Shown piece after piece: positions 8,977-26,180 of a stretch of 64,000 nucleotides of DNA. Source of the DNA: Gelatoporia subvermispora B. Its lineage: Eukaryota > Basidiomycota > Agaricomycetes > Polyporales > Gelatoporiaceae. Numbering within the stretch: the first letter of the stretch is position 1; each line of letters begins with the position of its first letter. Position numbers and translations under genes: made by a program. The stretch is taken from NCBI GenBank assembly GCA_000320605.2, contig KB445818.1, positions 201,079 to 265,078 of the forward strand, given 5' to 3'. A model generated the notes under the pieces. The model ran no database searches, was not told where the DNA came from, and saw only the letters and a list, made by a program, of their open reading frames with translations.

Positions 8977-9376
8977 GGCGAGAGGGGGGAGACGTGGATG
9001 GAGGTGGAGAGGAGAGGACGATAGGATGGTATGTAGCGGTAGGCGGGGAGATGTCGGATGGAGGTCCGGGCCAGGTGAGCAGTGGCTGCCTGTGGCTGCT
9101 CGCTGTTTACAGGCTGCTCGAGGCGATCCCTGACTCGCCTCTGTCATGATCGATCGCCTTATCTTATCCGCCCATGCCGTCATCCCCCGCCATCCCCCCA
9201 CAATCGCAGCGAGCGACACAAACGGCTGTAGTTACAGCACTTTCATAGGAACAAAAATCATCAGCAGCACGCACCAGTTGTATGAAGTTATAGACACCAA
9301 GGACTGCGGCAAGTAGTACCGGCATGGCAGCTGCATGATGAAAAAATGAGCATGAGTTTGAATTCAGGCTAATACT

Positions 9377-9449
9377 GAGTCGGCCCAGGTTCGAACTGAG
9401 GACCTTCTGTGTGTTAGACAGATGCGATAACCAACTACGCCACCGACCC
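9377..9449 (-). tRNA. tRNA-Val(AAC), identical to the copy at 1766
   Basis: Base-for-base identical 73-nt tRNA in the same orientation as the gene 7.6 kb to the left, followed 3' by a T6 run. The immediate 3' flank is also similar between copies (two short in/dels), which marks a segmental duplication rather than selection on the tRNA alone. Confidence 0.95.
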
Positions 9450-24678: not shown

Positions 24679-26180
24679 CTACTCGTCGTCTTCGTCCGTG
24701 AGCTCCTCGCCTTCGCGGAGGCCTAGATGGTGTTCAAATCCGGGCCTGCGCGCCCAGTGGCGCCCGTCAGTGTAGGGCTCTGCCTTGAGCGGCAGGAGCA
24801 GCGTGTACAAAGGGCTAGCGCGCGCTGGTGAGCAGTGACAGCATCCAAGGCGAGGCGCGCACTTACTATCCGTCCATCCCGACGTTGAAGAACAGCTCAA
24901 GGTTTTTCCATTTACTACAAGGCCAATGAGCGCTTGCTCTGGAGTTGGTAGAACGAAGCGCGATCATACCCCAAGTCAAATGAGTTGATGAATGTCTGGC
25001 GGTCGCAAATAAGTCGGATAAGAATCAAAGGTTCTGGAGCACTAACCTCTCCACGGCCTTGGGCTACCTTGCGGTAATGCTCATGGTCTTGAGACTCGAC
25101 AGATGTCTCCCCACTGGCTATGCCCCAAAGGTGCCACGTGATCATAATTGTCACTGCCAAGGATAAAACAACAGACAGGATGTATACAAGTAGAAATGCG
25201 ACCGGAGGCGAGTAATATGTCCAAAGACCCTGTGGCAGTATATTAGCTCCGCGTGGTGTCGGAAGGTATCGAGATCCCTACGCCATTCCAACCAAGTGCA
25301 TCCATGGCCCGCGGCCAGCCAGACAGCGTAAAACATGTTGTTGCTATGCTCAGCCAGACACTGCAGGATTCCTCGAGCGTCAGTCACGCTGGCGTCCCAT
25401 TACATCTGTACTGACAGGAAGAGCACAAAATGGCGCTCGTTGTAGAGGCCAACGCATTGATTGATCCCTAAGCCGCGAAGCATGTTCAAGTACTGCGCGC
25501 GCACGAGATCGCCGCTCAATACTCACACTGTGAGAGCCAAATATGCCGATTAGCACCAAACCAAACTTTTCGTCATCGGACGTACCGGACAATGATGATC
25601 ATACTTGAGCACACACCGGTTGCATATGCGGCAATGGTGTGACCTCTCCGAGCGGCAGCGCGGATGAGCCTCTCTTCCACGAGACAACTCAGCCTACATA
25701 CCTCCGGCCTCATAATACCACACCGTCTGCATCGTGAAACTGACGCCTTCACGATCTGGATGTCGTCCGACCAGCGGATGCCGGTTAAAGCTCTGTTCCT
25801 CGCACTCTGTCTTTTCTTCGCCCACAGCAGCCCTGTGCCCGGTTGTCGTGGCGGGTCCTCCACAAATCCGGGTGATATTGTGCACACATAGAAGTAGTGC
25901 GCGAACATATTCGCCGCGATTAGCACGCAAACCGGTGTGAGCAGTAACTGCAGCGGGAGCGAGGGTTGTACTACCTCGACTATGTAACAGATATGATTGT
26001 GTTAGGTTCCATCCCAGTCAACGTTCAGCATCGAAAGATTTGCTCACAGAAACAGATAGCGCCTGTGCCGAGGAGGACCACCCCAAGAGTCACGAACACC
26101 GGCCCAGCAGCGCCGGTCAGTTTGTCGCCGAGGCGTTCCAACGACCGGAAGCACCGGAAGACAATACGAGCGCAAGACAT
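24679..26180 (-). CDS. DHHC-type protein S-palmitoyltransferase, 331 aa, 10 exons including a 1-nt exon
   Basis: Exons (minus): 26180-26048, 25979-25702, 25645-25586, 25527 (one base), 25467-25416, 25360-25282, 25229-25047, 24995-24970, 24914-24867, 24814-24679; the sum is 332 codons with stop. The enzyme loads palmitate on its own Cys and passes it to substrate cysteines at Golgi, ER or vacuole membranes. Visible: TM1 ([20 protein letters not shown]), TM2 ([19 protein letters not shown]), the Cys-rich domain [20 protein letters not shown], catalytic DHHCP followed by [14 protein letters not shown], a third and fourth span ([30 protein letters not shown]), a TTxE-like SGETSVE, and the [13 protein letters not shown] box. 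The acidic end is [12 protein letters not shown]. The invariant Trp after DHHCP needs the single-base exon T between two standard introns (58 and 59 nt). Confidence 0.93.

Follow-up and report, generated by a model that had tools for sequence, protein, structure and literature searches.

A one-nucleotide exon in a fungal gene was published in 2026 for CYP621A of Fusarium, described by its authors as the first from any fungus (PMC12940212). As presented in that paper, the exon belongs to an ascomycete P450 of one genus, consists of a G in the middle of a glycine codon, and is backed by SRA reads in two species. It is flanked by two introns within a strongly conserved motif (PKG), joins otherwise incompatible phases, and is missing from public gene models, which are wrong at this point. 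In plants, the one-nucleotide exons of APC11 and VPS55 are reported to be absent from annotations and retained in most land plants; APC11 has undergone intron loss in some lineages, and sequential splicing has been proposed (PMC4674806, PMC8831610). Read mappers can miss such an exon, as in the soybean APC11 example (PMC8831610). A placozoan mitochondrial one-nucleotide exon is also mentioned in the literature. Very small exons of more than one base are described in filamentous fungi, for example in Phanerochaete P450 genes, where they lie beside introns of 45–55 bp and the shortest given is 6 bp (PMC1184071), and in Trichoderma Xlr2 (PMC11121469).

The gene described here, from Gelatoporia subvermispora B (Polyporales), shares with CYP621A a single base between two introns, the position within a highly conserved motif, the joining of incompatible phases and the incorrect public models. 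It differs in being a basidiomycete acyltransferase, in the identity of the base (T), in an apparently class-wide occurrence, and in being known from DNA and the proteins of relatives. Annotation missed the exon here as it did those of APC11 and VPS55, which are other genes in another kingdom. The plant exons are reported to have been demonstrated with RT-PCR, RNA-seq and reporter constructs; the Gelatoporia exon is predicted from sequence. Among the papers listed from open-licence PubMed Central, we found no one-nucleotide exon in a DHHC gene or in a basidiomycete. The original prediction knew of one plant example and of none in fungi; the Fusarium gene is a published fungal case (PMC12940212), and at least two plant genes have such an exon, APC11 and VPS55 (PMC8831610).

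The gene is located on the minus strand at positions 24680–26180 of the window, the 64,000-nucleotide stretch of DNA that was analysed. Spliced translation, Pfam and an alignment to human DHHC20 support a model of ten exons encoding 331 residues. Exon 1 (26048–26180, 133 nt) and exon 2 (25702–25979, 278 nt) are followed by exon 3 (25586–25645, 60 nt), whose 3′ end completes DHHC-Pro (TGT CCG). Intron 3 (25528–25585, 58 nt, GTACGT...CTAAT...CACAG) and intron 4 (25468–25526, 59 nt, GTGAGT...CTTAG) are separated by a single T at 25527, which forms exon 4 and the first base of the Trp codon, with a canonical acceptor before it and a canonical donor after it (CACAG-T-GTGAGT). Exon 5 (25416–25467, 52 nt) begins with GG-ATC-AAT, followed by CAA TGC, and the translation continues through exons 6 (25282–25360, 79 nt), 7 (25047–25229, 183 nt), 8 (24970–24995, 26 nt), 9 (24867–24914, 48 nt) and 10 (24680–24814, 135 nt as modelled). 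The nine introns of the model measure, in order, 68, 56, 58, 59, 55, 52, 51, 55 and 52 nt, so that introns 3 and 4, both with GT-AG ends, are of the same size as the other seven (51–68 nt). Intron 3 contains a CTAAT branch motif; a by-eye reading found no CTNAY motif in intron 4, which counts against the model. Omitting the T shifts the frame right after DHHCP. On re-reading, the coordinates originally predicted for exon 3, both introns, the T and the next exon proved exact, and the T does supply the Trp of DHHCPW and restore the frame, as had been claimed, giving 331 residues free of internal stops.

The gene encodes a predicted DHHC protein S-acyltransferase. The spliced protein matches the Pfam DHHC domain (PF01529) with 110.8 bits against a cut-off of 28.7, and its translation and alignment to DHHC20 place the DHHC motif within a Cys-rich domain, followed by PW. 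In sequence comparison, human DHHC20 (PDB 6bml) aligns across the junction with its Cys-rich domain and its DHHCPW-[VI]N-x-CVG; ZDHHC9 (8hf3) and ERF2 (8hfc) are other structurally solved DHHC palmitoyltransferases. A search of NCBIfam with the protein returned no name. The source database of one relative, P0026, names that protein ZDHHC16. Three DHHC paralogues in the same genome (L001, L002 and L004) carry continuous codons through the equivalent junction (CPWVNN, CQWVNN and CVWLGY, respectively). Two further hits (L006 and L008) are repeats of L001 and L004, and scans of L003 and L007 found no readable DHHC motif, which is uninformative either way. Elsewhere in the window, two tRNA genes are found on the minus strand at 1765–1838 and 9376–9449, 7.6 kb apart and scoring 59.1 bits each with Rfam; Rfam at gathering thresholds gave nothing else in the window.

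The possible ways of joining exon 3 to exon 5 were enumerated, using GT-AG, GC-AG or AT-AC ends, introns of at least 40 nt, micro-exons of at most 40 nt, and acceptors up to 12 nt beyond the start of exon 5. The frame is kept to the end in 22 of the resulting 97 combinations (56 with a single intron and 41 with two), and DHHCPWINQ is obtained from only one, consisting of intron 25585–25528, exon T and intron 25526–25468. The closest competing in-frame products are DHHWINQ, in which the Cys of DHHC is gone, CPVRINQ, which uses a donor at +4, and a form with an upstream acceptor. Against the Pfam DHHC domain, the form with the T scores 110.8 bits, the +4 donor form 98.3 and the upstream-acceptor form 82.0. 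Among the 97, neither a single intron nor a micro-exon of another length yields both the frame and DHHCPWINQ, and these solutions were rejected.

The 118 nt between exons 3 and 5 contain the pattern AG-N-GT a single time. When this stretch was shuffled 20,000 times with its dinucleotides preserved, 623 shuffles had AG-T-GT flanked by 45 nt or more on either side; 42 had it with YAG and GTRNG, and none with YAG and GTRAGT as observed. The 12-mer CACAGTGTGAGT occurs nine times in the 37.7-Mb genome and its reversed pattern twice. Each of the other eight places with CACAGTGTGAGT was read, and a one-nucleotide exon was not seen at any of them. Two of these surveyed loci, L009 (G000:C3:1404400-1405900) and L011 (G000:C7:354900-356400), are near-identical around the 12-mer and are perhaps copies of a dispersed repeat. 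Two other loci that resemble each other, L013 (G000:C11:7400-8900) and L014 (G000:C16:20500-22000), contain a candidate 11-nt micro-exon, ACCTTCACAGT, between two short introns, with an in-frame join reading ...Q-TFTV-TNVTLRVGSGY.

Relatives of the spliced protein fall into two types. Among the best 120 of 377 matches, 20 proteins come from contigs of at most 2,393 bases (sources lgn, jgi and ena) and 100 from contigs of at least 5,554 bases (NCBI). Contig size and source suggest that the 20 are transcript-derived, since each reads as one protein across the sites of nine introns and 12 of their contigs, with less than 450 nt outside the open reading frame, are too short to hold nine introns of 50 nt. 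DHHCPW is present in 20 of these 20 transcript-like proteins versus 3 of the 100 genome proteins (Fisher P = 6e-20, with the rows related rather than phylogenetically independent). In a FastTree tree, the 20 are interspersed among the 100 (17 label changes, compared with a mean of 18.8 and a range of 14–20 in 200 shuffles) and therefore do not form a separate lineage. For example, the transcript-like P0087 is 86% identical to a Lactarius model that reads CPVGINQ. Of the 97 other genome models among the listed matches, 53 read CPV[RGW] and 22 have an insertion that ends in G; the rest read CP/CA-G (10), other insertions (4) or DHHW (3), skip WINQ (3), or are unclassified (2). The CP/CA-G, WINQ-skipping and unclassified models count against the main reading.

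A more distant query gave a second set, in which 63 proteins of the best 120 of 191 matches were new. From these, 18 Agaricomycete genome proteins, 9 short-contig proteins and 16 genome proteins from outside the Agaricomycetes were picked by name and identity. The 20 left uncounted (P0128, P0129, Malassezia-like, Podila-like and animal-like proteins, Giardia and Ciona) all read DHHCPW too. Among the matches listed, the motif is present in 1 of the 18 Agaricomycete genome proteins, in 10 of 10 short-contig proteins (the 9 plus P0121, from the junction-fragment search described below), and in all 16 genome proteins of Wallemia, Malassezia, Pucciniomycotina, Naganishia and Podila. DHHCPW is absent from 114 (97 plus 17) of the 118 listed Agaricomycete genome proteins examined. 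The four that have it (P0011 of Taiwanofungus, P0048 of Tricholomella, P0100 of Mycena latifolia and P0130 of Flagelloscypha) possibly reflect intron loss, correct annotation or another structure.

No Gelatoporia transcript was found. A 95-residue fragment across the junction gave five matches, none close to this species and the best being 65% identical along most of the fragment; the top entry among the best 120 of 377 whole-protein matches is the gene model itself. Of the remaining fragment matches, P0122 reads DHHCPW, P0124 starts differently and then reads CPW, and both P0123 and P0125 read DHHCPV. P0125 (166 residues, contig of 1,162 bases, DHHCPVSLSL...) is the only short-contig protein seen without DHHCPW and lies outside the counted sets. 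We judge it to be probably genomic or unspliced sequence, because it continues into intron-like residues, as P0123 also does. The public model, CERSUDRAFT_89027, is the best match of the spliced protein (100% identity, rounded, over 79% of the query) and reads CPGINQ at the junction, a product given by none of the 22 in-frame solutions. This 263-residue model begins at an internal Met, so that the first 68 residues of the 331-residue protein are absent in addition to the wrong junction.

The incorrect models carry a common signature. If the exon after the T opens with GG in phase 1 in the relatives too, as it does in Gelatoporia, any false in-frame junction must leave Trp, Arg or Gly (codons NGG) ahead of [IVL]N[QG]. 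The residue at this position is W, R or G in all 111 readable cases of the 114 wrong models among the listed matches, compared with a background of 17.6%. For the class of insertions ending in G, an exon following AG would require the codon of the preceding residue to end in A. All 22 fit, 21 with a pyrimidine before the AG and one (Gln) without, as read from the code; one more insertion model in the second set (Glu, Sistotremastrum) fits only without the pyrimidine. The CPV[RGW] class would imply an intron starting with GTNNGT, an ordinary donor shape. The signature is present in models of Sebacinales, Cantharellales and Geastrales as well as in those of better-known orders. Among the listed matches, indels within 3 residues of the junction are found in 86 of 100 genome models versus 0 of 20 transcript-like proteins. 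At the other intron sites, the genome models show indels in 0 of 99 and in 12, 1, 54, 2, 4 and 0 of 100, the site with 54 lying in a stretch that is variable in the transcript-like set as well (7 of 20). Judged from these alignments, the annotation error is specific to the DHHCPW junction.

We are therefore highly confident that the Gelatoporia gene contains a constitutive one-nucleotide exon, with the Trp codon after DHHC-Pro split by two introns, and that the arrangement is likely old, Agaricomycetes-wide and misannotated. That frame and conserved residue together call for such an exon, as originally argued, agrees with a solution unique among the 97 combinations and with the Trp in all 20 listed transcript-like relatives. 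A single intron, either spliced from the +4 donor (DHHCPVRINQ) or ending at the upstream acceptor, would give an enzyme without the Trp. It would also keep the frame and have GT-AG ends, and CPV[RGW] is the most frequent form in the listed genome models of relatives (53 of 100). It is nevertheless very improbable, given the lower Pfam scores of both forms, their occurrence in none of the 20 listed transcript-like proteins, and the Trp in 16 of 16 genome proteins from outside the Agaricomycetes. A T missing from the assembly ahead of GGATC, the true genome having one ordinary intron followed by TGGATC, would likewise restore the frame, and the public model and the window come from the same assembly and are not independent. 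However, the models of numerous further species fail at this very residue, and it is not credible that one base error recurred in all those assemblies; two good introns around a rightly placed T would, in addition, be a coincidence seen in 0 of 20,000 shuffles. We reject this reading as vanishingly improbable. Nor is there a realistic chance that the frame rule does not apply because this copy is decaying or has lost its function: the sole support is the broken contiguous frame at the junction, while all other exons keep the frame and conserved residues over 331 residues, and full-length orthologues with up to 71% identity are among the listed matches.

A further alternative accepts the exon in Gelatoporia and regards it as local, other Agaricomycetes having some other awkward structure, such as a non-canonical splice site or a longer missed micro-exon. 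The relatives are known here from protein models rather than DNA, and four Agaricomycete genome models do have DHHCPW. This alternative has a small but appreciable chance. Against it, the false junctions of relatives need an exon starting with GG in every readable listed case, and 53 of 100 listed models would be explained by an intron starting with GTNNGT after the Pro. Between the exon edges only the T is missing, so any longer exon would lengthen the protein, and the transcript-like relatives have no such extra residues. The architecture is most likely old and common across the Agaricomycetes, although the arrangement of the relatives' DNA, as well as the splicing of the Gelatoporia exon, its order and its constitutive nature, is what we infer from these comparisons.

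Intron definition is the usual view of how short fungal introns are recognised. With two spliceosomal introns leaving only the first base of the Trp codon between them, intron definition would most likely excise the short introns in turn, because CACAG and GTGAGT are a single base apart and spliceosomal complexes on both would clash. Removal of intron 3 first would give CCG-T|GTGAGT, and removal of intron 4 first CACAG|TGG; either order would lead to CCG-TGG-ATC. Skipping of the T would produce a frameshifted mRNA, and annotation pipelines with no model of a one-nucleotide exon would put false junctions in its place. The Arabidopsis study likewise argues for sequential removal and cites a potato micro-exon whose second intron is removed first (PMC4674806).

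The proteins of outgroups fit a starting point with a contiguous or differently split codon. Two Tremellomycete proteins (Naganishia) read DHHCPW, so the structure may postdate the Tremellomycete split. It could have arisen by two intron gains, or, in the way suggested for CYP621A (PMC12940212), by losing a base and recruiting a cryptic exon. It is also conceivable, though in our view improbable, that the exon arose once in the ancestor of the Agaricomycetes and was kept as an active-site splice switch, tuning palmitoylation through splicing fidelity. Inclusion of the T would then give an active enzyme and skipping a frameshifted product, while the +4 donor would give a Trp-less product and a donor inside the Cys codon a Cys-less one.

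The DHHC gene of Gelatoporia, with its predicted single-T exon, may be the first basidiomycete gene known to contain a one-nucleotide exon. Its inferred class-wide presence would provide natural material for testing how splicing copes with one base between two introns. The case also indicates that annotation goes wrong systematically at a catalytic motif: 114 of the 118 listed Agaricomycete genome-derived proteins examined have no DHHCPW. As wrong models are common and include the public model of this gene, alignments built on them carry a false change in the active site.
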